From contig CALKXD010000277.1 of the NCBI GenBank assembly GCA_938003855.1, forward strand, positions 1 through 32,639: a DNA stretch of 32,639 nucleotides, in the 5' to 3' direction. The position numbers and the translations under genes were made by a program. The DNA is from an uncultured Granulosicoccaceae bacterium (GTDB lineage Bacteria > Pseudomonadota > Gammaproteobacteria > Granulosicoccales > Granulosicoccaceae). Under the pieces are notes generated by a model. The model searched no databases. It worked only from the letters and a program-made list of their open reading frames with translations, and was not told where the DNA came from. Below are positions 154 through 13,662 of the stretch, in pieces (the stretch's first letter is position 1; the number at the start of each line of letters is the position of its first letter).

Positions 154-1014
154 ATGACCCAAAGTAACCGATTTTTATCCCTGCTTTGCACGCTATTATT
201 CTGCAGTTTTTCAGTCCACACAAACGCGGCTGACGAACCGCAATATCGGCAGCTACCCCGGACTCAGACAACTCCGGGAGGAGTGGTTATTCTGGATCTC
301 GGCAGCACCGACTCGACCAGCCCAACAGCGACTTATAACGAGGTGCCAGTTGCCGTGGTTCGCACCACTGCCGGCTGGCGCGCGATGATCGGCATCCCAC
401 TGTCTGCCAAACCCGGCCCGCACAGCGTTGAGGTAACAAGATACGACGGCAGCGTCGAGTTAAAGACCTTCGAGGTGGACTTGAAAGCCTACCCCGAGCA
501 ACACCTGACCATCGAAAACAAACGCAAAGTCAATCCAAATGACGAAGACATGGTGCGTATCCGACGCGACCGTACCGACATCGCGAATGCCAAACGCTAC
601 CGCCATCCCACTATTCTGAGCACCCGACTTGACATCCCGGTCGAGGGTATTCGCAGCAGTTCTTTCGGCTCACGCAGAATTTTGAACAAGCAACCTCGCC
701 AACCGCATGGCGGTATGGATATCGCGGCAGCATCCGGCACACCCGTGTATGCACCGGGTGACGCCATTGTGGTCGAAAGCGGCGATTATTTCTTCAGCGG
801 CAAGTGCCTCTTTCTCGGTCATGGGGCGGGCCTGCAAACTTTCTACGCTCACCTAAGTAAAATTCACGTGAAGCCAGGCGATATCATAAAGCGCGGCCAG
901 CTCATTGCCGAGGTTGGTGCAACCGGCCGGGTGACCGGCGCTCACCTGCATTGGTCAGTCGGCCTGAACAGAACCTGGGTCGACCCGGAGTTGTTTTTGG
1001 CGACCACGGAGTAA
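154..1014 (+). CDS. Secreted M23 family metallopeptidase (LytM-type endopeptidase)
   Basis: Predicted periplasmic zinc endopeptidase of the LytM/M23 family, which cleaves peptide cross-bridges in peptidoglycan. The 286-residue protein begins with a signal peptide whose cleavage is likely after the TNA at residues 23-25. Residues 30-150 look like the N-terminal domain common in proteobacterial M23 proteins (PGG, then GWRAMIGIPL, then a proline/glycine turn). The catalytic domain is complete: HxxxD zinc ligands H185 and D189, the mid-domain H233 in FYAHLS, and the HxH pair H264/H266 in GAHLHW. It ends in the usual VDPELFL. The start is the first in-frame ATG; no strong Shine-Dalgarno precedes it. 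With all metal ligands present it is probably an active enzyme rather than an EnvC/NlpD-like activator. The exact substrate bond is not deducible. Confidence 0.9.
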   Translation: MTQSNRFLSLLCTLLFCSFSVHTNAADEPQYRQLPRTQTTPGGVVILDLGSTDSTSPTATYNEVPVAVVRTTAGWRAMIGIPLSAKPGPHSVEVTRYDGSVELKTFEVDLKAYPEQHLTIENKRKVNPNDEDMVRIRRDRTDIANAKRYRHPTILSTRLDIPVEGIRSSSFGSRRILNKQPRQPHGGMDIAAASGTPVYAPGDAIVVESGDYFFSGKCLFLGHGAGLQTFYAHLSKIHVKPGDIIKRGQLIAEVGATGRVTGAHLHWSVGLNRTWVDPELFLATTE

Positions 1015-1380
1015 CTACCCTGCCCTTTCTCCCGCATCTCCATGCAGGAAAAATATCTTTTCATCTTCCTTTCAGTGAAGTTCCGCCCCCCGGAAACTCA
1101 GCCTACCCCGCATTTATTGCGCTTAATCTGCTGAAACTAACTTTAGGATAGTTAACATTACTTTTAAGTTTACAAACAGCCTGCCGTAACAATGGTCCAG
1201 TGAGATTGCGGGCGTCGCCATCGTCCAGCGATCTTGCTCAAAACTATAACTATTTCACATTCGTCTAAAACGTTGAAAGACGCGATAGAAAAATAAAAAT
1301 AGTCGCAGGTTAGCCCAACGAAAGGCCAACCATTTGATACACGTCCGCCTCGGCGGCGCGTTTAAATTGGGGTTGTGTTA
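1015..1380. other. Intergenic region with putative structured leader of the astacin gene
   Basis: This 366-base gap between the M23 and astacin genes holds no convincing reading frame. Its right part has an inverted repeat, GGTTAGCC (1309-1316) and GGCCAACC (1324-1331), separated by eight bases and with one internal A/C mismatch. Just before it, GCGA and TCGC flank an A-rich loop (about 1282-1305). This looks like a folded 5' leader for the downstream protease, but I could not match it to a known riboswitch. The bases from 1140 to 1300 are AT-rich and probably contain the promoter. Confidence 0.35.
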
Positions 1381-2853
1381 ATGAACAATAATAATCCGTG
1401 CAAGACACGGGAGCTTCGCGTGAGCCTGTTATTCCTACTGGGAGCAACAGCCTACTCACATGCAGCAACATCAGAAACAATGCCGAATACTTCGGATGCC
1501 ACACCATCTGCGGTGGAGCGTGTCCGCACCACTTTCACATTCCGCAATGGAGAAGAACACATTCGCACTGTTGAGCGTGTCGGCGACCACGCAGTTGCCG
1601 AGGGCGACATGATCATCGGAAGCGCCGAGCACTTCTTTGCACTCGCCGATAAGCGCACCGCCAAAGGCTTGAGCAACACCGCCTATGGTCGCACCTGGCC
1701 GAACGGAATCGTTCCTTACAACATCAATACTGATTTATCAGCATCCGTTGTTGCTAAAATCCGTGCTGCCGTGGATCACTGGAACTCAATCGGCGCGATC
1801 ACGATGGTCGAACGCACTGCAGCAAACTCGACCACCTATCCAGACTACATCGATTTTGTCAACGCCAACCGTTGCGCCAGCTGGATAGGTTATCAAGCCA
1901 CCGGTCCACAGCAAATCTATACCGGTGACCGATGCAGTGCTGGCAGCATGATTCACGAGATTGGCCATGCACTGGGGCTACTGCACGAGCACACCCGGCC
2001 GGACCGGGACAGCTTTGTAAAAATACACTGGGATCGTATCACCACTGATATGGAACTCAACTTTGAGATAATTGCCGGCGGTGTGCCACTCGGTGCTTAC
2101 GACTATGGTTCGATCATGCACTACGGCACCGGCTTCTTCAGTAACGATGGTAATCCAACACTGGAAGCAATTCAGCCCACCAGTGCCACTATCGGTCAGC
2201 GTGAAACCACCAGCACCGGAGACAAGCAATCTGTCGCCACGTTATACCAAAGCAACTTATCTCTGGTCATGAGTGCGGCAGCACAATCTATAAATGCCGG
2301 GGGCGCTGTCGATATGACGCTGTATGTCACTAACAATTCAGCCACTGGTGCCAATTCTCTGCAAGTGAGTTTACCGGTAGCATCTGACTCAAGCTTACTG
2401 TCAACGTCATCCACCGACTGGGTTTGCACACAAAATGGCACGGGCGCTAATATACTATGTGACTCGTCGCTGCTGGAAGCTGGTGCAGACACCTCGATTG
2501 GTTTGCGCATCTCTGCAGCAACGACTGCCGGGCAACAACTTTTCGACGCCACGCTGTCGAGTCGCACGCCGGACACCAACGAGAACGACAATCATGACTC
2601 CGCAATCATCAACGTGGTAGGAACCACCGGTGATGAACCAATCATCGCCGCACTGAGCCCTAACCCGGGCACATCCACGACCGATCCATTTGCAGAAATC
2701 GCAGCAAAGCAAAATACACAACAAGCGACCGGTGGCAGTGCGGGTGGCGGTGGAGCATTCAACTGGCTAAGCCTGGGCTTTCTGCTGGTGCTGTTTCCAT
2801 TCATTCGAGTGCAGCGAAAGCAAGGATTGACGGGCTGCTGCAGACATCATTAA
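1381..2853 (+). CDS. Secreted astacin-type (M12A) metalloprotease with DUF11-like domain and GlyGly-CTERM tail
   Basis: Predicted extracytoplasmic zinc endopeptidase. The M12A signature is intact: HEIGHALGLLHEH has ligands H192, H196 and H202 with catalytic E193, followed by RPDRD. The Met-turn SIMHYG gives M246 and Y248. A signal peptide (residues 1-28, ending SHA) precedes a propeptide-like stretch. Residues of about 290-425 resemble a DUF11/Ig-like repeat, with the TNNSATGANSL and DTNENDN motifs. Residues 451-490 are a sorting tail: a GGGG run, a hydrophobic segment, then R/K residues, as in GlyGly-CTERM proteins processed by rhombosortase. The ATG at 1381 is preferred because GGGG lies eight bases upstream; the in-frame GTG at 1375 is too close to it. 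The protein is probably cleaved and released or surface-anchored after secretion. Substrate unknown. Confidence 0.9.
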   Translation: MNNNNPCKTRELRVSLLFLLGATAYSHAATSETMPNTSDATPSAVERVRTTFTFRNGEEHIRTVERVGDHAVAEGDMIIGSAEHFFALADKRTAKGLSNTAYGRTWPNGIVPYNINTDLSASVVAKIRAAVDHWNSIGAITMVERTAANSTTYPDYIDFVNANRCASWIGYQATGPQQIYTGDRCSAGSMIHEIGHALGLLHEHTRPDRDSFVKIHWDRITTDMELNFEIIAGGVPLGAYDYGSIMHYGTGFFSNDGNPTLEAIQPTSATIGQRETTSTGDKQSVATLYQSNLSLVMSAAAQSINAGGAVDMTLYVTNNSATGANSLQVSLPVASDSSLLSTSSTDWVCTQNGTGANILCDSSLLEAGADTSIGLRISAATTAGQQLFDATLSSRTPDTNENDNHDSAIINVVGTTGDEPIIAALSPNPGTSTTDPFAEIAAKQNTQQATGGSAGGGGAFNWLSLGFLLVLFPFIRVQRKQGLTGCCRHH

Positions 2854-2864
2854 TAAGAGATTCT

Positions 2865-2897
2865 GATCGGGGATGTTTGTCAGGAACATCCCCGATC
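2865..2897. terminator. Strong perfect stem-loop between the astacin gene and lpxB
   Basis: Arms GATCGGGGATGTT (2865-2877) and AACATCCCCGATC (2885-2897) pair perfectly over 13 bases around a seven-base loop. It lies 12 bases after the protease stop codon. Neither strand has a run of U after it, so it does not meet the usual intrinsic terminator pattern. It may instead be a 3'-end-stabilising hairpin or an attenuator before lpxB. Confidence 0.5.
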
Positions 2898-2943
2898 ACT
2901 ATGATAGGCTCGGACGCACTCTAACGATCGACGCCTTGATTCA

Positions 2944-4110
2944 ATGAAAATTATGATCAGCGTGGGCGAGGCCTCGGGAGACATGCACACTGCAAATGTG
3001 CTGCATAAGCTCCAGTCTCTAGACACGCAAGCAATTGAAGCATTTGGTATGGGCGGCAAGCGCCTGTCTGCCGCCGGTATGGAACTGATTGTCGATAATG
3101 CCGAACACTCGGTGATGGGTTTGGTTGAAGTACTGCACAAATACCCAACGCTACGTGGCCATCTAAACCTGCTGCGCCGTACCCTGAGCGCCAGAAAACC
3201 AGATCTTCTGTTGTTAGTGGATTATCCGCACTTTAATATGAAACTTGCGATCACGGCCAAGGCGCTACGCATTCCGGTTCTGTACTACATCACACCAAAA
3301 GTCTGGGCATCCCGTGCCGGTCGGCTACAGGAACTGAAAAAAACCATTGACCACGCAGCGGTTATTTTCCCTTTCGAAGCAGATCTCTTCGAACAGCACA
3401 ATATCAGCGCCACCTATGTCGGCAACCCATTGCTGGACAATCAGGCCCTGATTGCTGTCAGCAATCGCCATAAAGCACCTGACACCGATACACTTATCGC
3501 ACTTCTGCCTGGCAGTCGAAAGAGCGAAGTTAACTACCTGTTACCCTCGATGCTCGACGCATCGCTTAAGATCAAGACAAAATTTCCTGACGCGAAGTTT
3601 GTATTGCCGGTAGCTGAGACCATCGACAAATCAGTCATCATCGATATCGTCGGCACCCGCAACATCTCTGTAGAGCTAATCGAAGCAGCAAATTACAGTC
3701 GCCTGGCGGAATGCAAAGTAGCGCTGGCCGCGTCAGGTACAGCCACTCTCGAGCTTGCGATCATGGGTATCCCGATGGTGGTCGCCTACAAAATGAATCC
3801 GCTGAGTTATATGGTCGTCAAACGATGGCTGACGATTAAAAACGTAAGCCTGGTTAACATCATTGCCGGAGCCGCAGTGGTGCCCGAACTGCTGCAGGAT
3901 GATGCTACCGCAGACAATATATTTAACGAAGCCGATAAACTATTGACCGACAAAGACACCTACAAAGATCAGGTTTCAAAATTAGCGTCCGTCTATAACC
4001 AACTGGGGTCCGGCGGCGCGGCACTGCGTCTGTGCAACATTATTACCACTATGGTGGGCGACTCTAAAAGCAGCGCCGGTGAACAATCCAAGGGTGCTGT
4101 TTGTCGTTAG
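2944..4110 (+). CDS. lpxB: Lipid-A-disaccharide synthase
   Basis: Peripheral membrane GT19 glycosyltransferase that joins UDP-2,3-diacylglucosamine to lipid X to form the disaccharide core of lipid A. Family motifs are in order: GEASGD near the N-terminus, GMGGKRL, TPKVWASR, LPGSRKSEV in mid-protein, and ASGTATLELAI towards the C-terminus. The length of 388 residues is close to the usual 380. The ATG at 2944 starts the protein directly at the conserved N-terminus (KIMISVGEASGD), although no strong ribosome binding site precedes it. In most Gammaproteobacteria lpxB follows lpxA on the same strand. Here the two genes converge tail to tail with 21 bases between them, so lpxB must have its own promoter. 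Confidence 0.97.
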   Translation: MKIMISVGEASGDMHTANVLHKLQSLDTQAIEAFGMGGKRLSAAGMELIVDNAEHSVMGLVEVLHKYPTLRGHLNLLRRTLSARKPDLLLLVDYPHFNMKLAITAKALRIPVLYYITPKVWASRAGRLQELKKTIDHAAVIFPFEADLFEQHNISATYVGNPLLDNQALIAVSNRHKAPDTDTLIALLPGSRKSEVNYLLPSMLDASLKIKTKFPDAKFVLPVAETIDKSVIIDIVGTRNISVELIEAANYSRLAECKVALAASGTATLELAIMGIPMVVAYKMNPLSYMVVKRWLTIKNVSLVNIIAGAAVVPELLQDDATADNIFNEADKLLTDKDTYKDQVSKLASVYNQLGSGGAALRLCNIITTMVGDSKSSAGEQSKGAVCR

Positions 4111-4127
4111 TCATCCCGCCGACAAAC
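4099..4127. terminator. Stem-loop at the lpxB/lpxA convergence
   Basis: GTTTGTCG (4099-4106) and CGACAAAC (4120-4127) form an eight-base perfect stem around a 13-base loop that includes the lpxB stop codon. It sits between two converging genes, where a bidirectional terminator is expected. It lacks U tracts, so intrinsic termination is uncertain. Confidence 0.35.
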
Positions 4128-4131
4128 CCCA

Positions 4132-4902
4132 CTAGACTGTGCCACGCTTGCCCTTGCGGAGAAACTCAACAAAACCCGCCACACCGGGGTAGTTTTTTGC
4201 CAGAGCGTCAACCTCAGCATACACCTCGTCGGTTTTAACTCCCTTGCGCTTGACCAGTTTGACAAAGGCCTTCTGGATAGCTGAAATCTCCTCAGCCGTA
4301 AACCCGCGACGCTTCAGTCCTTCTCTATTGATGCCAATTGCCTCCGCGTAGTGACCACTGACCAGCACGTATGGCGGCACATCCTTGTTGATAACAGACC
4401 CCATACCGGAAAAACTGTGGCTCCCGACCCGGCTAAACTGATGAACCAGAGAAAAACCACCGAGAATAGCAAAATCACCGACTTCAACATGCCCCGCAAG
4501 CGATGCTGAGTTAGCAAAAACGGTATTGTTACCGACGAGGCAGTCGTGCGCAATGTGCACATAAGACATCAGCAGGTTATCGTTGCCAACGCGTGTCACA
4601 CCACCGCCACCCGTCGTGCCGCGATTAATACTGACAAATTCGCGTATCTTGTTTCGATCACCAATTTCCAACCGGCTCTGCTCACCGTCAAATTTCAGGT
4701 CCTGCGGATCATCGCCAATTGAAGCAAACTGGAATATTCTGTTTTCCCGGCCAATTACGGTTGGGCCTTTAACAACAACATGCGGTCCGAGCACGGTCTC
4801 CGCACCAATCTCGACTTGCGCACCGATCACACAATACGGCCCGATTTCGCAGGTTTCGTGGACAAAGGCACTTTCATCGATTACCGCCGTCGCATGAATC
4901 AA
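4132..4902 (-). CDS. lpxA: Acyl-ACP:UDP-N-acetylglucosamine O-acyltransferase
   Basis: Catalyses the first step of lipid A synthesis, transferring a 3-hydroxyacyl chain from ACP to the 3-OH of UDP-GlcNAc in the cytoplasm. The 256-residue protein has the left-handed beta-helix hexapeptide repeats and the HIAHDC motif with H116 and H119. H119 corresponds to the catalytic H125 of the E. coli enzyme. With that six-residue offset, M167 (in FSGMGSV) falls at the E. coli G173 'hydrocarbon ruler' position. A Met there in Pseudomonas selects C10 rather than C14 chains, so a short 3-hydroxyacyl chain is inferred. The start codon is TTG and overlaps the fabZ stop in the four bases TTGA. It is the last gene of the minus-strand envelope cluster. 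Confidence 0.97.
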   Translation of the reverse strand: MIHATAVIDESAFVHETCEIGPYCVIGAQVEIGAETVLGPHVVVKGPTVIGRENRIFQFASIGDDPQDLKFDGEQSRLEIGDRNKIREFVSINRGTTGGGGVTRVGNDNLLMSYVHIAHDCLVGNNTVFANSASLAGHVEVGDFAILGGFSLVHQFSRVGSHSFSGMGSVINKDVPPYVLVSGHYAEAIGINREGLKRRGFTAEEISAIQKAFVKLVKRKGVKTDEVYAEVDALAKNYPGVAGFVEFLRKGKRGTV

Positions 4903-5348
4903 GAGTCTATCTCGTTTTTGGCTATCAGGACCTCAGCGCTGCAACAAAGCGCATCATCAACCATTGCGGTTGCTGCGAATCTCCAGATCCCACGCCTGGT
5001 GCGCTCAAGCGTCACCTTCACCGTTAGGCGATCTCCCGGAACCACTTGACGCTTAAATCGGGCTTTGTCTATGCCAACCAACAAATACAGAGTCTCCTCA
5101 CTGGGATAGCCTCCGAGCTCACGAAACGCAAAAACAGCGCAACTCTGAGCCATAGACTCTAGAATCAGCACACCGGGGAACACCGGAAACTGCGGAAAGT
5201 GGCCGGTAAATATCGGCTCATTGATGGTTACGTTTTTTATCGCCGTCAGACTGACACCGGGATCCATCTCGACGACTTTGTCGATCAACAAAAAGGGATA
5301 ACGATGCGGTAAGTACTTTACGATCTCTGTAATATCTAGCTGTTCCAA
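4899..5348 (-). CDS. fabZ: 3-hydroxyacyl-[ACP] dehydratase FabZ
   Basis: Cytoplasmic dehydratase of type II fatty acid synthesis, converting 3-hydroxyacyl-ACP to trans-2-enoyl-ACP. It therefore competes with LpxA and LpxD for the same substrate pool. The 149-residue hot-dog fold shows PHRYPFLLID (residues 14-23), GHFPQFPVFPG with catalytic H50, and ILESMAQ with E64. The only possible start upstream of PHRYPF is TTG at 5348: an in-frame stop lies seven codons further upstream and no ATG or GTG lies between. GGGAA about eight bases before the TTG serves as ribosome binding site. It sits between lpxD (18-base gap) and lpxA (four-base overlap). Confidence 0.97.
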   Translation of the reverse strand: MEQLDITEIVKYLPHRYPFLLIDKVVEMDPGVSLTAIKNVTINEPIFTGHFPQFPVFPGVLILESMAQSCAVFAFRELGGYPSEETLYLLVGIDKARFKRQVVPGDRLTVKVTLERTRRGIWRFAATAMVDDALCCSAEVLIAKNEIDS

Positions 5349-5366
5349 ACGTGCGTTCCCGGTTCG

Positions 5367-6383
5367 TTAGCTGCGCGGTGGTTTTCGTGACTGGCGGACA
5401 AATTCATCCAGCTTGTGAAGGCGTATTGCGTTTTTCCGCCATTGCGCAGAGGTTTCCAGCGGATACCCGGAAGAGTAGCTTCCCGCTGTCGCAATGGAGC
5501 GATTCACAAATGAATCCGCTGTGATCATAACGTTATCACAGATGGAAAGATGGCCAACTATTGATACCGCCCCACCGATACGACAGTTCCGGCCTATTTT
5601 TGTACTACCGGCAACACCGGTACACCCGGCGATCGCAGTATTGCTGCCAATCACAACATTGTGGGCAATCTGAATCTGGTTGTCCAAAATGACACCATCC
5701 CCGATAACCGTGTCATCAAGAGCACCACGATCTATAGTCGTCGATGCCCCGACACTGACTCGATCACCTAGTGTCACCCCGCCAAGCTGATGTATTTTCT
5801 GCCACCCCTCGGACGAGGGCGCCCAGCCAAAACCATCTGCGCCGATTACCGCAGCAGAGTGAATTTCACAATAGCGACCAACGGTACAATCATGCATCAC
5901 CGTCGCATTCGGGAACAAATGCGACCCTTCACCGATATGACAGCCATTGCCGACAAACGCCCCAGCGTCAATACGCACATTATCACCAATGACGCTGTGA
6001 TCAGCGATTACAGCATGCGGCCCAACAGTAGCCGAAACGGCAAGCTCTACACCTTCACCAATAACAGCAGACGGATGCACCCCGGTGGTGATCGATTGTT
6101 GATTAACCCACAATTGAGTGAGGCGTGCATAACACAGATAGGGATCATCGCTATGCAGCCGAACGGCCGATGTCTCTGCGACAAACGCTTGCGGCATAAT
6201 CACCGCCGTCGCCTGAGAAATTTGCAGCGCCGGTAGAAAACTCCGACCGGTAACAAAAGTTATACTTCCGGGCATTGCATTATCGACTGGCGCAATGCGG
6301 TTTATTTCAAGCGTAGGATCGCCTGCAATAGTGAGGTTGAGCGCATCGGCAATCTCGCCGGTGGTAAAGGATATACGGCCCAC
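5367..6383 (-). CDS. lpxD: UDP-3-O-(3-hydroxyacyl)glucosamine N-acyltransferase
   Basis: Third step of lipid A synthesis: adds a second 3-hydroxyacyl chain to the amino group of UDP-3-O-acyl-glucosamine. The N-terminal uridine-binding domain covers about residues 1-100. The hexapeptide-repeat beta-helix covers about 105-310 and includes GADGFGWAPS, TTIDRGALDDT and DNQIQIAHNV, with catalytic H241. A short C-terminal helix ends in RKPPRS. The length of 338 is normal (E. coli 341). The start is GTG at 6383, eight bases after the skp stop; there is no ATG nearby. It is co-directional with skp, fabZ and lpxA, so outer-membrane protein and lipid A functions share a transcript. Confidence 0.97.
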   Translation of the reverse strand: MGRISFTTGEIADALNLTIAGDPTLEINRIAPVDNAMPGSITFVTGRSFLPALQISQATAVIMPQAFVAETSAVRLHSDDPYLCYARLTQLWVNQQSITTGVHPSAVIGEGVELAVSATVGPHAVIADHSVIGDNVRIDAGAFVGNGCHIGEGSHLFPNATVMHDCTVGRYCEIHSAAVIGADGFGWAPSSEGWQKIHQLGGVTLGDRVSVGASTTIDRGALDDTVIGDGVILDNQIQIAHNVVIGSNTAIAGCTGVAGSTKIGRNCRIGGAVSIVGHLSICDNVMITADSFVNRSIATAGSYSSGYPLETSAQWRKNAIRLHKLDEFVRQSRKPPRS

Positions 6384-6391
6384 CCGCTTAG

Positions 6392-6937
6392 CTATTTTTT
6401 GTTTTCATCAGAAGAACTGCCGTCTGACTCAAAGTCTCCGGCCAGGTGCAACTCACGTAACACCTGCTCGGTAACGTCAACATTTTTGTTGGCAAACAAC
6501 ACCCCGTCACTAATGATTAGATCGTAGTCCTGTTCCTTTGCAAACGACGCTATGGCATCGAGCACATAGATCCGGACTTGCTTGAATTCCTGATTTTTCT
6601 GGATGTTGAGCTCTTCCCTGAATTCCTGCTCGTCTCGCTTAACACGCCGCTCGGTTTTGCGGAACTCCCGCTCAACGCTGGCGCGTTCGTTACCATCGAG
6701 CTCGCCGTCTTCCCCATCCAGTTTCTTTCGCAACTGAGCGAGTACGACCTTCTGGGCTTTAATACCCTCCTGCCGAGGCGCAAACTCCCGCTCAAGCCTG
6801 TTGCTTGCAGCCTGAGCCTGAGGCGCTTCGTCAATCAAATACGGAATATCGACAAACCCGATCTTCATCTCGGCTGCATTAGCCATAGACATAGGAAGCA
6901 GGCAAGCTGCCAGTATCAGCGATAGGCGACTCAGCAC
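6392..6937 (-). CDS. skp: Periplasmic OmpH/Skp family chaperone
   Basis: Periplasmic holdase that carries unfolded outer-membrane proteins from the Sec translocon towards the BAM complex. The mature part begins AEMKIGFVDIPYLIDEAPQ, like Skp, followed by a long charged coiled coil (EREFRKTERRVKRDEQEF) and the C-terminal YDLIISDGVLFAN strand. The start is uncertain. The frame stays open to a TTG at 7000, just after the bamA stop, but that would give a 43-residue presequence. The GTG at 6937 gives a normal 21-residue signal peptide cut after ANA, so I prefer it. The acidic tail (ESDGSSSDENKK) is longer than in E. coli. It lies directly downstream of its functional partner bamA. Confidence 0.88.
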   Translation of the reverse strand: MLSRLSLILAACLLPMSMANAAEMKIGFVDIPYLIDEAPQAQAASNRLEREFAPRQEGIKAQKVVLAQLRKKLDGEDGELDGNERASVEREFRKTERRVKRDEQEFREELNIQKNQEFKQVRIYVLDAIASFAKEQDYDLIISDGVLFANKNVDVTEQVLRELHLAGDFESDGSSSDENKK

Positions 6938-7000
6938 GAGATTACAAACCCGAACTGGCACAGAGACTGTGAGTGCGGACAATCCGCATAGACCCGGCAA

Positions 7001-9322
7001 TTAGAACAGAGAGCCGATAGTAAATTGAAATGCCTGCTTGCTGTCGGTGATATCATCATTAAAAGTTTCGGCAAAGCTGAAGGTAAGAGGGCCGACCGGC
7101 GCCAGCCAGACAAACGCCAATCCGTAGGAACCACGGAGTTCGTCCGCGTCGAAGTCTGACACATCGCTAAATACATTGCCAAAATCGGCAAACAAACTCA
7201 AGCGCGTGGACCCTGCACTCTCGACAAATGGGGGCGGAAAGATCACCTCAAGCGACCCGATCGTCCTGAAATCCCCCCCTTGTGCATCTCCGTCGGAGTC
7301 GACCGGACCAAGCGTACTGCGCCGATATCCGCGAACCGACTGAATACCACCGGCGTAAAAGCGCCGGAAAAAAGGCAGAGTCTCCAGGCCGTCTTCACCT
7401 TCTCCGTAGTTGAGACGGGTACTGAATGACAACGTGTAACGCTCTGTCATTGGATAGAAATACTCAAAACTATACCCAAGTTTGATGTAGCTCAGATCGC
7501 TGTTTGGTGTGGTTGCCTCAAGGCTCAGCGAGTTACGGGTTCCGCGCGTCGCAAACACGGTTCGATCCCGGGTATCATGCGTGTAGCCAATGTTTATATC
7601 GAATAGATCGTAGTCACTACCGAATTTATCAATAAAACCAAGAATTTCGTCCGAGGATTCTTCCGTTCTAATGGCATCGACTCTTTCATAACCGAATCCA
7701 AAATTAAAGGTTGAGAACTCGCTCATCGGCACGCCATAACGGACCTTGGCACCGTAGCTGTCTAGAATAAATTTGGTGGTTGAACTCAGTTGACTGGTGT
7801 CAGTTTTTTTGATGAATGCCCGCACGTTGCGACTAATGCCGTCAGGCGTGTAGTAGGGATCGGTGTAGGAAACAGAAAAGTTATCCTGACTGGTGCTGTT
7901 GTCAAAAGTTACCGCAATACGCTCACCGGTTCCGAACAGATTTTCCTGAGTAAAATTTATATTAAAGATGAAGCCATCGGTACCATAGCCGGCACCGGCA
8001 CCAAACGACCCCGACGCACCTTCAGTCACACTTACGGCAATGTCCACTAACTCTTCCGAGCCAGGTACACGCGGAGTGTTAATCGAGATACGTTCTATAT
8101 AGGGCAATCGCTGCAAGCGGGTCTGTGAGCGTGTCAGTGCGAGCGGCGAAAAGCGGCTGCCCTCCATTTGTCGCATCTCGCGCCGCAATACCTCATCGCG
8201 GGTTCGATTCTGACCCGTGAAAGTGATACGTCTTACGTAGACCCGCTTGCCCGGGTTGACGTTTAAATTCAGCCCGACAGTGTTTGAAGTGTCGTCAATA
8301 TCCGGAATAACATTCACATCGGCAAATGCATAGCCGTCTTCGCCTAGACGATCAACAATCGCACTGTTGCTCTGGGTCATTAACTTGCGCGAGTAGATAT
8401 CTCCCGGCGCCATCACCAGCAATTTTTTTAACTGCTCTTCAGTGACACTGAGATTGTTGCCGGAGATAGCGATGTCACCCACTTTGTACTGCTCTCCTTC
8501 ATCAACGTTAATGGTCACGTTTATGTCTCGTTTGTCCGGAGAGATCGTCACTTGCGTGGAAGAGATATCAAACCGCAGGTAGCCACGATCCAAATACCAG
8601 GCGCGAAGTTTTTCGGTGTCGGCGGTCAATTTTGCACGGGAGTATTTGTCGCGTGCGCTTAACGGATTCCAGCCAGCGACCCCTGAGTCGAGTAACTTCA
8701 GCAATTGCTTTTCAGAAAATGCGCTATTGCCAACGATGTTTACATGACTGATTTTCGCTATAGCGCCTTCCGTCACCTCGACGTTGACGTTGACGCGATT
8801 GCGCTCCAGCTTGTCCACTGACGAGGTGACTGTGGTTCCATACTGGCCGCGGCTGAAATAAACCTGACGCACTTCAGTTTCAAGGTTATCCAGCACAGAC
8901 CGGCGAAAGATTCTGCCGGGCGCAAGACCGATCTGGCGAAGAGTGTCATCCATCTGTTCTTTTGGAAGAGCCTTGCTGCCTTCTACATTGACTTCGACAA
9001 TGGAAGGACGTTCGGCGACAGTAACGATGAGCACACCGTCGTCACGGGATAGACCGACATCATCGAACAGCTCGGTATCGTACAAGGCCCGTATCACACG
9101 ACCGCTGTCGCGGTTCGTCTCGAAACGTTCGCCGGCACGTACCGGCACATAGCTCAATACCGTGCCTTTCTCGACCCGCTCAATACCACGTACAACGATA
9201 TCGCTAATGATAAACGCGCGCTCGGCCGCAGTGACATTCAAGGAACTGAGTGCACTGAGCGCAAAGCAGAGGAAGACAAGTGACCGGAGGCCACTGAGTT
9301 TAAAGGCGGAACCTGATGGCAT
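7001..9322 (-). CDS. bamA: Outer membrane protein assembly factor BamA
   Basis: Central component of the BAM complex, which folds and inserts beta-barrel proteins into the outer membrane. A signal peptide (cleavage likely after VTA near residue 32) is followed by five POTRA domains up to about residue 430; the first begins FIISDIVVRGIERV. The rest is a C-terminal 16-strand barrel. The lid-loop signature VRGYRR is at residues 663-668. The protein ends in a terminal Phe (FTIGSLF), the signal its own class uses for insertion. Length 773, slightly below the E. coli 810. ATG start at 9322. It lies between rseP and skp, the conserved arrangement that links envelope stress control to barrel assembly. 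Confidence 0.97.
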   Translation of the reverse strand: MPSGSAFKLSGLRSLVFLCFALSALSSLNVTAAERAFIISDIVVRGIERVEKGTVLSYVPVRAGERFETNRDSGRVIRALYDTELFDDVGLSRDDGVLIVTVAERPSIVEVNVEGSKALPKEQMDDTLRQIGLAPGRIFRRSVLDNLETEVRQVYFSRGQYGTTVTSSVDKLERNRVNVNVEVTEGAIAKISHVNIVGNSAFSEKQLLKLLDSGVAGWNPLSARDKYSRAKLTADTEKLRAWYLDRGYLRFDISSTQVTISPDKRDINVTINVDEGEQYKVGDIAISGNNLSVTEEQLKKLLVMAPGDIYSRKLMTQSNSAIVDRLGEDGYAFADVNVIPDIDDTSNTVGLNLNVNPGKRVYVRRITFTGQNRTRDEVLRREMRQMEGSRFSPLALTRSQTRLQRLPYIERISINTPRVPGSEELVDIAVSVTEGASGSFGAGAGYGTDGFIFNINFTQENLFGTGERIAVTFDNSTSQDNFSVSYTDPYYTPDGISRNVRAFIKKTDTSQLSSTTKFILDSYGAKVRYGVPMSEFSTFNFGFGYERVDAIRTEESSDEILGFIDKFGSDYDLFDINIGYTHDTRDRTVFATRGTRNSLSLEATTPNSDLSYIKLGYSFEYFYPMTERYTLSFSTRLNYGEGEDGLETLPFFRRFYAGGIQSVRGYRRSTLGPVDSDGDAQGGDFRTIGSLEVIFPPPFVESAGSTRLSLFADFGNVFSDVSDFDADELRGSYGLAFVWLAPVGPLTFSFAETFNDDITDSKQAFQFTIGSLF

Positions 9323-9379
9323 TAACGGTTTATGGCGTGTTGGATTCTGCGCCAGAATAGCAAGTCGACTCTGGCAGAG

Positions 9380-9406
9380 GCATTACCGAATCTAAACGTA
9401 TGTCAA
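9380..9406 (-). promoter_or_regulatory. Possible sigma-70 promoter upstream of bamA
   Basis: On the minus strand TTGACA (9401-9406) matches the -35 consensus exactly and is followed, after 15 bases, by TAATGC (9380-9385). The spacer is short and the -10 is weak, so this is only a candidate. It lies in the 135-base rseP-bamA gap, where an internal promoter for bamA-skp-lpxD-fabZ-lpxA would be useful. No clear sigma-E promoter (GGAACTT) is visible there. Confidence 0.3.
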
Positions 9407-9457
9407 AGTGTTTCAGTCACCAAAAACCCTATAGCCACAGCCCATAACAGCGATAAC

Positions 9458-10834
9458 TCACGAGGGCAGTATGCGCAGAATATCCTGGTAGAAAACAAAG
9501 GTCATCAGACCGGCCAGAAGCAACAGACCGATCTGCTGACCATAGATTTGAATTTGCTCGGAAACCGGTTTGCCGGTGACCGCTTCAACCGCAAAATACA
9601 CCAGATGCCCACCATCAAGCATTGGCACCGGAAACAGATTAAAGATACCGAGACTGATTGACACCAGCGCAATAAAATTAAGGTAATGATCAACGCCGAC
9701 ACTCACCGACTGACCGGCAAACTGAGCGATGGATATCGGCCCGCTGACGGTATTTTTCAAAGACGCCTCACCGGTAAATAACTTACCGATCATGCCCAGG
9801 CTTACCGAGATCATCTTACCGGTGCGCTGTACAGCCTTGCCAAATGCCACGCCCGGAGAATACCGCTCTACGGTTCGGAGTTTTTCATCGATCAACTGCT
9901 GCGACTGTGTTTCCCGCGCCCCGATAAAACCAATAGTGCCATTATCCAATTGCTTTAACGCCGGAGTAAGAGCAATAGTCATAGGCGACGCATCACGCAG
10001 CAGTTCGATCTGCAACGTTTTCTCCGGACTGTCACGGATGATATGCACCCAATCGGTCCACGTCTGCACCAACTGCCCGTCACTTCGTACCACCCGATCA
10101 CCTGGCAGCAGTCCAGCTGCTTCAGCCGCTCCACCCGGTACAATTCCACCAATCACCGGATCAACGGTTGGCCACCAGCGCTGCAGACCAAGCTTGCCAA
10201 TCAAATCTCCCTGATCGGCGAGCAACTCCCGACTGTCTATCGGCAAACTGCGTGTCACTTCACTACCGGACTCGGTCAGAACTGTGATCTCAAGCGTCTC
10301 TCTACTTTCAACAATCCCGTCGAGAATGGCGACAAACGCGGTATCCCAGGTTGGTGTGTGCATGCCGCCTATGCGGGTAATTTTATCCCCTTCAGTGAAA
10401 CCAGCCTCTACCGCCGGGGTGTTGGCCAATGGCGCACTAAGAATGGGGGCAATGCCGGTAATACCAACGATAAACACCACCCAGTAAACCAGTACCGCCA
10501 GGATAAGATTGGCCAGCGGGCCTGCCAGCACGATGGCACTGCGAGCCCAGACGCTTTTTCGGTTAAATGCCCGGTCGAGCTCATCCGGTGGTACGTCACC
10601 CTCGCGCTCATCGAGCATCTTGACGTAACCACCCAGCGGGATAGCCGCCAGTACATACTCTGTGGCGTCCTCGCCGGCTATTTTTTTCCACAGCGGCTTG
10701 CCGAACCCGACAGAAAACCGGAGCACCTTAACGCCCATCTTTCTGGCCACCCAGTAGTGACCAAATTCGTGCACTGTGACAAGAATGCCTATTGCCAGAA
10801 TAAAAGACACCACACTCAACAGAAAACTCTGCAT
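9458..10834 (-). CDS. rseP: Site-2 intramembrane metalloprotease RseP
   Basis: Inner-membrane zinc protease that makes the second cut in the anti-sigma factor RseA, releasing sigma-E during envelope stress, and clears remnant signal peptides. The first membrane segment carries HEFGH (H22, E23, H26, the same numbers as in E. coli). The last-but-one segment has NLFPVPMLDGGHL with D407 as third metal ligand. Between them lie two PDZ domains, roughly residues 115-290. The length of 458 is standard. The ATG at 10834 is preferred over the in-frame TTG at 10837 because AGGAG lies seven bases upstream. That ATG shares one base with the dxr stop (TGATG), so translation is coupled. Upstream of bamA, as is common. 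Confidence 0.96.
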   Translation of the reverse strand: MQSFLLSVVSFILAIGILVTVHEFGHYWVARKMGVKVLRFSVGFGKPLWKKIAGEDATEYVLAAIPLGGYVKMLDEREGDVPPDELDRAFNRKSVWARSAIVLAGPLANLILAVLVYWVVFIVGITGIAPILSAPLANTPAVEAGFTEGDKITRIGGMHTPTWDTAFVAILDGIVESRETLEITVLTESGSEVTRSLPIDSRELLADQGDLIGKLGLQRWWPTVDPVIGGIVPGGAAEAAGLLPGDRVVRSDGQLVQTWTDWVHIIRDSPEKTLQIELLRDASPMTIALTPALKQLDNGTIGFIGARETQSQQLIDEKLRTVERYSPGVAFGKAVQRTGKMISVSLGMIGKLFTGEASLKNTVSGPISIAQFAGQSVSVGVDHYLNFIALVSISLGIFNLFPVPMLDGGHLVYFAVEAVTGKPVSEQIQIYGQQIGLLLLAGLMTFVFYQDILRILPS

Positions 10835-12090
10835 CAAATTACTCCTGCCGGTGGCTTAACCGGGCTCATGCCGTTATCAATATAATCGACCGTGTAACGC
10901 CTGACTTTTTGATCCAGCGCGCACAAGTCGTTAATTGTTCGGGATTTTTCACTGTTGTAACTCCGCAGCACATAGGCGTTTATACGCGCTACATCGATAA
11001 ATCCGATGCGCTCATCGATAAAGCTTTGCACAGCTACCTCGTTAGCGGCATTTAGCACGCCAGTTGCAGAGTTGCCTCGTCGCATCGCCTCACGAGCAAG
11101 CGCCAGACACGGAAATCGTGTGTCGTCAGGAGGAATAAACTCCAGACCACCCAGCAAATGAAAGTCGAGAGGTTCAACCCCGGCGTCGATTCGGGAGGGC
11201 CAGGCAAGTGCGTGCGCTATCGGAGTTCTCATGTCAGCCCTGCCCAGTTGCGCCAATACTGACCCATCACAATATCGCACCATCGAGTGGATAACACTTT
11301 GTGGATGAACGACGACCTCAATGTTGGCTTCATCCACCCCAAAAAGGTAGCTGGCTTCGATGATTTCAAGCCCTTTGTTCATCATTGTGGCTGAATCAAC
11401 AGAAATTTTTGCCCCCATGCTCCAGTTCGGGTGCTTAAGCGCCTGAGCGACCGTCACTGATTCCATTTGCTCAGTCGAATACGCGCGAAACGGCCCGCCC
11501 GATGCCGTCAGCACCAGAGATCGAATCTCATGCCCCTGACCAACCTGTGCATCATTCGTCCCTGTCTGCATAAGACCAGTCGTGCGCGCCATCTTGTCCG
11601 GCAAACACTGAAATATTGCATTGTGCTCGCTGTCGACAGGCACAATAGTGGCTCCCCCTTGTCTTGCGGCGGCGATCAACAGATCTCCAGCAACGACCAT
11701 GGCTTCTTTGTTCGCCAACAGTATTCGCTTGCCGGAACGCGCTGCTATGAGTGTCGACTCCAGCCCCGCAAAACCGACGATTCCTGCCATAACAACATCA
11801 ATGTCAGGACTGGAAGCTATCTGCTCATGCGCCGAAGACACTGGCAGGACCACCGTCGCGGATTGAATCGCCTTCAGCCGTCGCGTCAATTCGTCAGAAG
11901 CCTGAGGATCTGCCATCGCGGCAAATCGGGGTTGCAGCTGCTGGCACTGCAGAAACAATAATTCGACATTCTTATGCGCACACAAAGCGCTGATGCGATA
12001 TCGATCCGGGTTATTCCGGATAACCTTAACCGTGTTAACACCGATCGATCCGGTAGATCCGAAAATGGCGACAGTTTCAATTTTTGCCAT
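10834..12090 (-). CDS. dxr: 1-deoxy-D-xylulose 5-phosphate reductoisomerase
   Basis: Cytoplasmic enzyme of the methylerythritol phosphate pathway, converting DXP to MEP with NADPH. The Rossmann motif GSTGSIG is at residues 11-17, and the metal and substrate regions VDSEHNAIFQ, TASGGPFR, HPNWSMGAKISVDSATMMNKGLE and HPQSVIHSMV are all intact. It has 418 residues, about 20 longer than E. coli; the excess is split between the stretch just before TASGGPF and the C-terminus (VKPPAGVI). ATG start at 12090, three bases after cdsA ends. It provides isopentenyl units that UppS, encoded two genes upstream, uses to build the lipid carrier. Confidence 0.97.
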   Translation of the reverse strand: MAKIETVAIFGSTGSIGVNTVKVIRNNPDRYRISALCAHKNVELLFLQCQQLQPRFAAMADPQASDELTRRLKAIQSATVVLPVSSAHEQIASSPDIDVVMAGIVGFAGLESTLIAARSGKRILLANKEAMVVAGDLLIAAARQGGATIVPVDSEHNAIFQCLPDKMARTTGLMQTGTNDAQVGQGHEIRSLVLTASGGPFRAYSTEQMESVTVAQALKHPNWSMGAKISVDSATMMNKGLEIIEASYLFGVDEANIEVVVHPQSVIHSMVRYCDGSVLAQLGRADMRTPIAHALAWPSRIDAGVEPLDFHLLGGLEFIPPDDTRFPCLALAREAMRRGNSATGVLNAANEVAVQSFIDERIGFIDVARINAYVLRSYNSEKSRTINDLCALDQKVRRYTVDYIDNGMSPVKPPAGVI

Positions 12091-12093
12091 GAA

Positions 12094-12903
12094 CTACAAC
12101 CAAAGTACCGCAAATGCCATCCAGGGAACCGCAGCGAGCAAACCATCGAAGCGATCCAGTACACCACCGTGACCCGGCAGCAACACACCGCTATCTTTCA
12201 CTCCTCTGGTTCGCTTAGCCCGACTTATGAATAGATCCCCTGCGATAGAATAAACCGCTGCAAACCCCGCCATAATAACCAGTGCCAGCCAGGACAGCTG
12301 ATCACCGGAGAAGTATCCTGTAACACTTACGGCCAGCACACCGGCTAACAGTAATCCACCCAATGCCCCCTCAATTGTTTTACCCTGAGAAATTTCAACC
12401 GCCAGTTTGCGACGACCGAACTTTCTGCCGGCAAAGTAAGCCCCAGTATCGGCACAGGCAACCAGCGCAACAATAAACACGACATACGCTGCTGATACGT
12501 TTGACCGCAGCCAATACAATGAAAGTAAAGATGTCAGTAGTATCAGTGAGGCCAGCAGCAGCAAGGGCAGCCGTATCTTTGGTGGACTGCTTTGGGCAAT
12601 AACAGGCTGCAAATGCAAATGGAATCCGATCGCGACCCAAGCCAGCACCACAAAAAGTGTCACCGGTTTTAACAATGCCTCACCACCGAACCGAAAACAC
12701 AGCGCCGCAATGACCACAATCACCAGGCTGTAGGCGGATCGGCTTTGCACAGACTTCAGGTTACACAAGTTACTCCATTCCCACGCACAGCTGCCGGCGG
12801 CCACCAGTAAAAACATAGCGAACCAGAAATCGGACCAGTAAAACAGTGCCCACGCCGCCACCGCTGCCAGCAACACAGCGGTAATAATGCGCTGCATCAG
12901 CAT
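12094..12903 (-). CDS. cdsA: Phosphatidate cytidylyltransferase
   Basis: Integral inner-membrane enzyme that makes CDP-diacylglycerol from phosphatidic acid and CTP, the branch point for all bacterial phospholipids. The 269 residues are mostly hydrophobic, with about eight membrane segments. The family signature is near the C-terminus: SRAKRTRGVKDSG followed by LPGHGGVLDRFDG, containing the metal-binding Asp residues. The start at 12903 is ATG, with a second ATG two codons on (12897); neither has a strong ribosome binding site, so the start could be two residues shorter. It lies 18 bases after uppS and three before dxr, the conserved order. Confidence 0.96.
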   Translation of the reverse strand: MLMQRIITAVLLAAVAAWALFYWSDFWFAMFLLVAAGSCAWEWSNLCNLKSVQSRSAYSLVIVVIAALCFRFGGEALLKPVTLFVVLAWVAIGFHLHLQPVIAQSSPPKIRLPLLLLASLILLTSLLSLYWLRSNVSAAYVVFIVALVACADTGAYFAGRKFGRRKLAVEISQGKTIEGALGGLLLAGVLAVSVTGYFSGDQLSWLALVIMAGFAAVYSIAGDLFISRAKRTRGVKDSGVLLPGHGGVLDRFDGLLAAVPWMAFAVLWL

Positions 12904-12921
12904 GACATTATCAGTCGGTAT

Positions 12922-13662
12922 TTAGTCATTTTGATTTTGCTGTTCGATTTGATCACCTGTCTGCCCAAACCGGCGCTGGCGCTTGGAAAAGTGCGTGATG
13001 GCCGCATCCAACTCAGCCACATTAAAGTCGGGCCACAGAGTGTTAGTGAAAAAAAGCTCAGTGTAGGCCAGATGCCACAGCAGAAAATTACTCAGCCTTT
13101 GCTCGCCGCCCGTTCGAATAAATAAGTCCGGCTCAGGCACATCCTGCAACCAGGTATGCCGGGTGACCAACGCTTCGTCGATATCGTCAGGGTTTAGTTC
13201 GCCACGTTGCACGCTGGCCGCGATGGCGGTCACTGCCCGCGCCAACTCACGCCGCCCACCGTAGTTCACTGCGATATTGAAACGCATGCCCGAATTAGCT
13301 GCCGTTTTTTCGGTTGCATGCCGGATCTCCTCGCGCAACGCATGCGGAAACACATCCAGCTCACCGATAAACCGCACAGCAATATTGTTTTCGTGAAGCT
13401 TATCCACCTCGCTGCGCAACGCACGCACAAAAAGCTCCATCAGAAAACTGACTTCTTTCTCCGGTCGCTGCCAGTTTTCGCTACTGAATGCATAAACAGT
13501 CAACGCCCCCACTCGCAGACGAGCGCAATGCTCGACCACCTGACGAATGGTTTTAACCCCAGCTTGATGGCCAGAGCTTCTCGGCAAACTTCGTTGCCGG
13601 GCCCATCTGCCATTGCCATCCATGATGATAGCGATATGATCTGGAGGAATACTCAATGTCAT
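12922..13662 (-). CDS. uppS: Di-trans,poly-cis-undecaprenyl-diphosphate synthase
   Basis: Cis-prenyltransferase that adds eight isopentenyl units to farnesyl diphosphate, giving the C55 carrier for peptidoglycan and O-antigen. The N-terminal motif HIAIIMDGNGRWA contains catalytic D15. Downstream are YAFSSENWQRP, NYGGRRELA, PDLFIRTGGEQRLSNF and LWPDF, all family hallmarks. The length of 246 is normal. The start is ambiguous. The ATG at 13662 overlaps the AAAGGA motif that would be the ribosome binding site, whereas TTG at 13656, two codons on, is spaced five bases from it and may be the real start. It follows frr after a 134-base gap. Confidence 0.96.
   Translation of the reverse strand: MTLSIPPDHIAIIMDGNGRWARQRSLPRSSGHQAGVKTIRQVVEHCARLRVGALTVYAFSSENWQRPEKEVSFLMELFVRALRSEVDKLHENNIAVRFIGELDVFPHALREEIRHATEKTAANSGMRFNIAVNYGGRRELARAVTAIAASVQRGELNPDDIDEALVTRHTWLQDVPEPDLFIRTGGEQRLSNFLLWHLAYTELFFTNTLWPDFNVAELDAAITHFSKRQRRFGQTGDQIEQQNQND

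Follow-up and report, generated by a model that had tools for sequence, protein, structure and literature searches.

The window, that is the whole stretch of 32,639 nucleotides that was analysed, belongs to the genome of an uncultured Granulosicoccaceae bacterium (6.8 Mb, 312 contigs) and carries a gene for an astacin-type protease (Table 1). Translation from the ATG at 1381 yields a protein of 490 residues, an in-frame GTG at 1375 is an alternative start that gives 492, and a TAA stop follows the codon ending at 2850. The N-terminus, read by eye, consists of a basic n-region, a hydrophobic core and the putative cleavage site SHA/A. The catalytic domain scores 147.1 bits with PF01400 over residues 107-292 (cut-off 22.5), and the solved chains that match it best in a sequence search are tolloid-like protein 1 (E 1.2e-28) and BMP1 (E 1.2e-27). 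The HExxHxxGxxH motif is present as HEIGHALGLLHEH and is accompanied by SIMHYGTGFF; we take the former to be the astacin zinc motif and the latter the astacin Met-turn. Between the DUF11 domain and the C-terminal tail lies a linker of low complexity. LegP, the astacin effector of Legionella (NF045530), shares the protease domain family, but the protein encoded in the window stays at 201.3 bits, under the 300-bit cut-off of that model, and differs by its type I signal (by eye) and its sorting tail.

Homologs of the protease (E<=1e-20) occur in 47 of the 48 genomes of its own family, the source genome included, and in one genome outside it, with 95 genomes searched; the nearest ortholog, from genome G012, is 65% identical. 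According to Pfam, window positions 154-13662 hold the astacin gene between a gene for an M23 peptidase and lpxB, beyond which the opposite strand carries genes of the lpxA, FabA/FabZ, lpxD, Omp85/BamA, M50/RseP, dxr, cdsA and uppS types. All five loci checked have these three genes, named after Pfam, in the order M23 peptidase, astacin and lpxB; one of the five, L044, comes from the closest relative with a name, Chromatiales bacterium (ex Bugula neritina AB1). A contig scan returned two loci, L044 and one distant match from the Planctomycetota.

Table 1. Features of the astacin locus and of related loci. Plain coordinates refer to the window, others are given as locus:positions (genome:contig), G000 being the source genome; a slash marks a predicted cleavage site.
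Feature	Position	Strand or orientation	Basis or remark
Astacin-type (M12A) metalloprotease gene	1381..2853	+	ORF list, PF01400
Type I signal peptide MNNNNPCKTRELRVSLLFLLGATAYSHA/A	1381..1464	+	read by eye
Astacin catalytic domain	1693..2250	+	PF01400
Zinc-binding motif HEIGHALGLLHE	1954..1989	+	sequence
DUF11 domain (PF01345)	2257..2604	+	36 bits, cut-off 24.6
Gly-rich signature GGSAGGGG, predicted rhombosortase cut region	2731..2754	+	sequence; TIGR03501; cut placed by comparison with VesB (PMC6219818)
Hydrophobic segment AFNWLSLGFLLVLFPFI, predicted membrane helix	2755..2805	+	sequence
Basic cluster RVQRK, predicted cytoplasmic side	2806..2820	+	sequence
Extension QGLTGCCRHH, absent from nearest ortholog	2821..2850	+	sequence, homolog comparison
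Rhombosortase gene	L013:7601-8227 (G000:C16)	divergent from gspG-N	TIGR03902
Rhombosortase and gspG-N cluster	L013:1645-8227 (G000:C16)		row reads gspG, H, I, J, K, L, M, N
Fused ORF: internal GlyGly-CTERM-like segment, then lipoprotein signal, then CHRD/CxxCH	L007:2153-9727 (G000:C64)		
Same fused architecture (second part CHRD or CHRD/CxxCH)	L047, L048, L049, L051, L052, L058, L067, L208		
Second double-signal ORF, unrelated	L139:2-3025 (G000:C98)		found by junction profile
Third fused case, 4079-aa ORF	L225:3226-15462 (G026:C88)		found reading matches in relatives
Double-signal run outside the family	L232:949-3132 (G173:C4)	minus	

The initial annotation had assigned a GlyGly-CTERM-like sorting tail to an astacin-type protease, and this assignment is confirmed. 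The segment in question comprises exactly the final 40 codons of the open reading frame, in which Gly motif, helix and basic cluster follow each other in this order, the predicted helix comprising 17 residues, none of them charged. The signature motif is devoid of Cys and falls on the GlyGly-CTERM side of the criterion by which a Cys in this motif separates MYXO-CTERM from GlyGly-CTERM tails (PMC3237569, published in 2011). The annotation had also proposed a check with TIGR03501, the outcome of which is divided. This model of 22 positions aligns to residues 458-478 (nucleotides 2746-2808); the 41-residue tail alone scores 20.6 bits and exceeds the cut-off of 15.5, whereas the full protein of 492 residues reaches 15.1 bits and remains 0.4 below it. 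The same site yields 20.5 bits in a six-frame search of the genome and 19.4 bits when the last 60 residues are used, and among sorting-tail models TIGR03501 is the only one matched by this tail. The genome search was run at a loose threshold (E<=10), the default E-value having given no match here or in any of 14 control genomes. Since 11 of these 14 also gave some match at the loose setting, one of them above the cut-off, a single TIGR03501 match is weak by itself.

Retention of the tail was assessed in homologs. We examined the last 60 residues of the 30 astacin proteins returned as loci, the one from the window included, for a Gly motif followed by a hydrophobic run and then by two or more basic residues. 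This three-part tail is present in 27 of the 30 proteins; when the same 60-mers are shuffled, 124 of 6000 sequences have it (2.1%). The C-terminal end is kept among the 30 homologs while the linker diverges. The tail thus occurs in astacin homologs more often than expected by chance. The three proteins without a tail by this rule are those of L036, L037 and L038, and the end of the L037 protein looks frame-shifted. In the window itself, two of 25 stop-to-stop ORFs of at least 200 aa conform to the rule, namely the astacin and an ABC permease-like protein. Two further controls were discarded: ORFs from all loci (112/563) were spoiled by the many loci that had been chosen for having such tails, and rhombosortase loci (24/81) by the last helix of the enzyme itself; shuffles and window ORFs were used in their place. 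At E<=1, TIGR03501 matches only 3 of the 30 tails and therefore sees this lineage poorly; as most tails escape it, the absence of a match would say little against a tail. Six of the 30 match MYXO-CTERM weakly, and six match the model for SVAGG GlyGly-CTERM proteins, likewise weakly.

The residues that trail the basic cluster had been called unusual, a view that does not stand. By a simple rule, the first basic cluster is trailed by at least five residues in 15 of the 30 lineage proteins (the window protein and the frame-shifted-looking one from L037 are counted here), and four have no such cluster under this rule. The trailing residues are unrelated in sequence between homologs, and the G012 ortholog ends in QRRH, one residue beyond its RR. 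In our view, nothing singles out the extension QGLTGCCRHH, which, in the topology that we infer, would be cytoplasmic and discarded along with the helix.

A rhombosortase and a type II secretion system had been predicted elsewhere in the genome, and genes for both were found. The rhombosortase gene is the only one in the genome above the TIGR03902 cut-off (about 152.3-152.8 bits versus 84), which no gene in the 14 control genomes exceeds, and its product exhibits the motifs GLSG and HLYG. Escherichia coli does not exceed the TIGR03902 cut-off, and its genus is reported to lack the tail system (PMC3237569). Two more rhomboid-like proteins (L002:1270-2055 and L003:1330-1935) remain below the cut-off with 41-42 and 32 bits, and three additional matches are at chance level. 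Adjoining the rhombosortase gene in the opposite orientation is gspG, the first gene of the gsp row. Type II secretion was called from the eight genes gspG-N. GspG, I, J, K and L score above their NCBIfam cut-offs, GspH falls short (66.3 of 80), and GspM and GspN exceed their Pfam cut-offs, GspN being without an NCBIfam match. In Acinetobacter, GspN is reported to function in the delivery of lipoproteins to the cell surface through type II secretion (PMC12802150).

This arrangement recurs within the family. A rhombosortase above the cut-off is encoded in 41 of 57 genomes searched and in 35 of the 36 from the own family, the one family genome without it being G032. All 26 other family loci that were fetched, from 34 other family genomes with the gene, have gspG and gspH divergent beside it, such that the rhombosortase gene adjoins gspG in each of the 27 family loci read, the own one included. 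For other families, the linkage is present in one of three loci (L098, not L070 or L097). The motifs GxSG and H(L/M)YG are retained in all 30 rhombosortase loci read (27 from the family and three from outside) and are shared with RssP (TIGR03902). According to the 2011 paper, rhombosortase co-occurs with type II secretion without marking a particular subclass, and its gene lies adjacent to single targets (PMC3237569); here, it is instead linked to gspG-gspH in the family loci read. The conserved adjacency to gspG provides an argument from gene order that the enzyme and type II secretion work together. Furthermore, it fits the coupling of cleavage, lipid attachment and export described for VesB of Vibrio cholerae, in which the cut exposes the second Gly, this residue is joined to glycerophosphoethanolamine, and surface display depends on the type II secretion system (PMC6219818).

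Based on the sequence, we therefore consider it highly probable that the gene encodes an exported zinc protease of the astacin-like type whose GlyGly-CTERM tail is cut by rhombosortase and which reaches the outer surface via the type II secretion system. Its N-terminal signal peptide would take the protein across the inner membrane, where the C-terminal helix would hold it, the Gly motif facing outward and RVQRK lying on the inner side. Rhombosortase would then cut within the Gly run, the new C-terminal Gly would, by analogy with Vibrio VesB, probably be joined to a lipid of the glycerophosphoethanolamine type, and the cut protein, which we infer to be active as a protease, would be delivered to the outer surface. 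GlyGly-CTERM proteins of Vibrio and Shewanella (VesB, VesC, Xds; TIGR03501) resemble the window protein in combining a Gly motif, a helix that here, by eye, is the only one beside the signal peptide, and a basic C-terminus on an exported hydrolase, and, as in their hosts, genes for rhombosortase and type II secretion are present in the genome. They differ in that the passenger here is an astacin (M12A) and that the tails of this lineage score low with TIGR03501. A GlyGly-CTERM tail also works on foreign passengers (PMC13393428). Our literature search revealed no astacin with GlyGly-CTERM or rhombosortase among the matches listed, and the astacin protease would constitute an addition to the passengers of the rhombosortase system.

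A hydrophobic segment with a basic flank would suffice to anchor a protein, and the tail could accordingly be a membrane anchor that remains uncut and keeps the astacin at the inner membrane. The Gly motif ahead of the helix, however, is kept in 27 of 30 homologs and a rhombosortase above the cut-off is present, which renders this improbable. Still less likely is the handling of the tail by another enzyme, be it one of the rhomboid-like proteins from L002 and L003, which do match TIGR03902 below its cut-off, a GlpG-type rhomboid, or a peptidase of the MYXO or JDVT type. In fact, GlpG cuts the VesB linker when RssP is absent (PMC13393428), and in a relative, JDVT-CTERM (cut-off 27) scores 35.9 bits on the tail of an unrelated passenger; yet the signature motif of the astacin has no Cys, and the match of its tail to TIGR03501 alone speaks against these options. 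That the tail is a fortuitous hydrophobic end without a role can practically be dismissed, for although the whole protein scores close to the cut-off of the short model, which is exceeded in one of 14 control genomes, the tail persists in 27 of 30 homologs despite the diverging linker, compared with 2.1% of shuffles.

The initial annotation had suggested a search for other proteins with the tail, and such proteins exist: beyond the astacin, the TIGR03501 search of the genome produced one match above the cut-off, located inside an ORF (C64), and five below it, of which three (C19, C26, C130) carry such a tail or a variant at their end and two (C135, C151) do not. A local profile gave 19 matches in the genome. 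Six of these loci were read in addition to C64; the tail is terminal in C152, C299 and C10 and internal in C98, and two matches (L133, L137) proved to be plain lipoproteins.

The internal match in C64 led to a set of fused ORFs. The ORF in C64 has 2524 codons and encodes FG-GAP, PKD, di-haem peroxidase and other domains. These are followed by GGGAFGLWSLIVVLLAGWRRS, then by VRQHRVAMAAVVVGTALTVTAC/GGGGGG, which by eye contains a lipobox, and finally by a CHRD domain and a CxxCH site. Eight fused ORFs of the CHRD type were encountered in 57 genomes and a ninth (G040) among the 48 genomes of the family, so that these fusions span nine genomes and four genera of the family. Those of G010 and G011 stop after CHRD, and both are without the N-terminal part of the passenger; that of G017 is interrupted by a contig end. 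Two further cases have other second parts. The ORF from G026, found in this one genome, joins an internal GlyGly-type tail and the lipobox LSSGC to a barrel-like region (under the Pfam cut-off) and an OmpA domain. In the C98 ORF, a short lipoprotein part follows the tail and looks frame-broken near its end. This fusion is not conserved, as the relatives L149-L153 end at their tails, and it is probably a broken case. Three of these relatives (L149, L150 and L153) have GGGCS or GGCS ahead of the helix and look intermediate between GlyGly- and Cys-type tails.

All 11 junctions are built alike: 12-20 residues separate a Gly motif from the first basic residue, next comes a loop containing 4-13 Arg/Lys and 0-2 Asp/Glu, and 12-17 uncharged residues lead up to a Cys. 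Their likeness is due in part to selection, as the later junctions were detected with a profile built from seven. When all ORFs of at least 120 aa in the loci gathered by then were scanned, exactly these 11 emerged. When cut out as short pieces, five of nine junctions score above the TIGR03501 cut-off, compared with one of ten longer C-terminal pieces. Between G000 and G012, pN/pS amounts to 0.44 in the junction and 0.17 in the passenger, a weak support as synonymous sites are near saturation. An NCBIfam model termed 'lipo-invert putative C-terminal anchoring domain' (NF058595) matches six of ten fused C-termini at E<=1 over helix, basic loop and lipobox, but the best of them scores 24.2 bits and none attains the cut-off of 37; moreover, its name denotes an anchor, but in the fused ORFs a second protein follows. 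Its existence means that curators have seen ends with helix, loop and lipobox, and what is new here is the reading of such ends as junctions between two proteins. The term 'lipo-invert' was not found in the literature searched, nor did the titles and abstract openings of the matches listed show a precedent for such internal signals, internal lipoboxes or bacterial polyproteins.

The search was extended beyond the family. A class-wide search with the fused C-termini covered 369 genomes, 18 of which gave matches (at most five candidates scored per genome); three outside-family loci read from it (L100, L101, L117) contain CHRD or cytochrome parts. A second class-wide search, with the junctions, likewise covered 369 genomes, 46 of them with matches and at most 18 candidates scored in each, and 30 loci were fetched. 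Besides the two junctions of the source genome, it yielded half junctions, and among the other 29 loci, which were viewed around their centres so that some views miss the match, a double signal was seen only in L232. In this locus, one frame combines repeats weakly resembling TSP3 (under the cut-off) with GSGTGSLGLLSLMLLSVLLALRYR, another signal-like stretch and a barrel that looks like that of OmpA. A TTG upstream of the second signal-like stretch could start the second part, and the type of this signal is ambiguous.

Whether the ORFs with internal tails encode polyproteins that are processed by both rhombosortase and lipoprotein signal peptidase is, in our judgement, evenly balanced. In each, a large exported protein would lead into a GlyGly-CTERM helix, and a basic loop in the cytoplasm would connect this helix to a lipoprotein signal with another envelope protein behind it. 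The helix would bring the chain back to the cytoplasm and let the second signal insert; rhombosortase would free the passenger, LspA (lipoprotein signal peptidase) would free the lipoprotein, a hairpin of two helices would be left between the cuts, and the two partners would arise in a one-to-one ratio. As an exported chain must return to the cytoplasm before a second signal can insert, this topology predicts a segment of Gly motif, helix and basic residues, and such a segment is indeed present in all nine CHRD-type fusions, least typically in L052 and L208. If cleavage occurs as predicted, two proteins encoded in one frame can be split at a sorting tail, and the GlyGly-CTERM tail, beyond its role as an end signal, would serve as a junction between proteins. 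The position of a motif at the extreme end of a protein may, as suggested in the 2011 paper, help rhombosortase to choose its substrates (PMC3237569); internal tails, if cut, offer a test of whether the enzyme needs the motif at the very C-terminus.

An independent start of the second protein was sought as ATG, GTG or TTG located 15-25 codons ahead of the Cys and followed by a basic residue. Three of the 11 fused ORFs possess such a codon, L049 (ATG), L052 (GTG) and L058 (TTG), the ATG of L049 being convincing with AAGGTG upstream. No ordinary internal start lies 15-25 codons ahead of the Cys in the remaining eight, among them L048 and L051. Most of the eight have start-type codons farther upstream in the first hydrophobic segment, including an ATG in L067 and L222. 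In most fused ORFs, the lipoprotein signal therefore seems to be reached only when translation runs on from the first protein.

Unfused relatives resemble only part of the passenger, with the exception of that from G029, in which the passenger ends in a GlyGly-type tail and the lipoprotein gene is divergent. Where the likeness is mainly C-terminal (G024, G014 and G030), the passenger is without a tail and a separate lipoprotein gene follows directly in all three cases. In six loci with N-terminal likeness (L209, L210, L211, L212, L213 and L214), the lipoprotein gene is situated upstream and the unfused passenger ends in a Cys-bearing tail; the one such tail tested is that assigned above to JDVT-CTERM (NF033191). 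The JDVT-CTERM motif contains a Cys, and the astacin of the window is without this tail. The genus may harbour a second sorting system.
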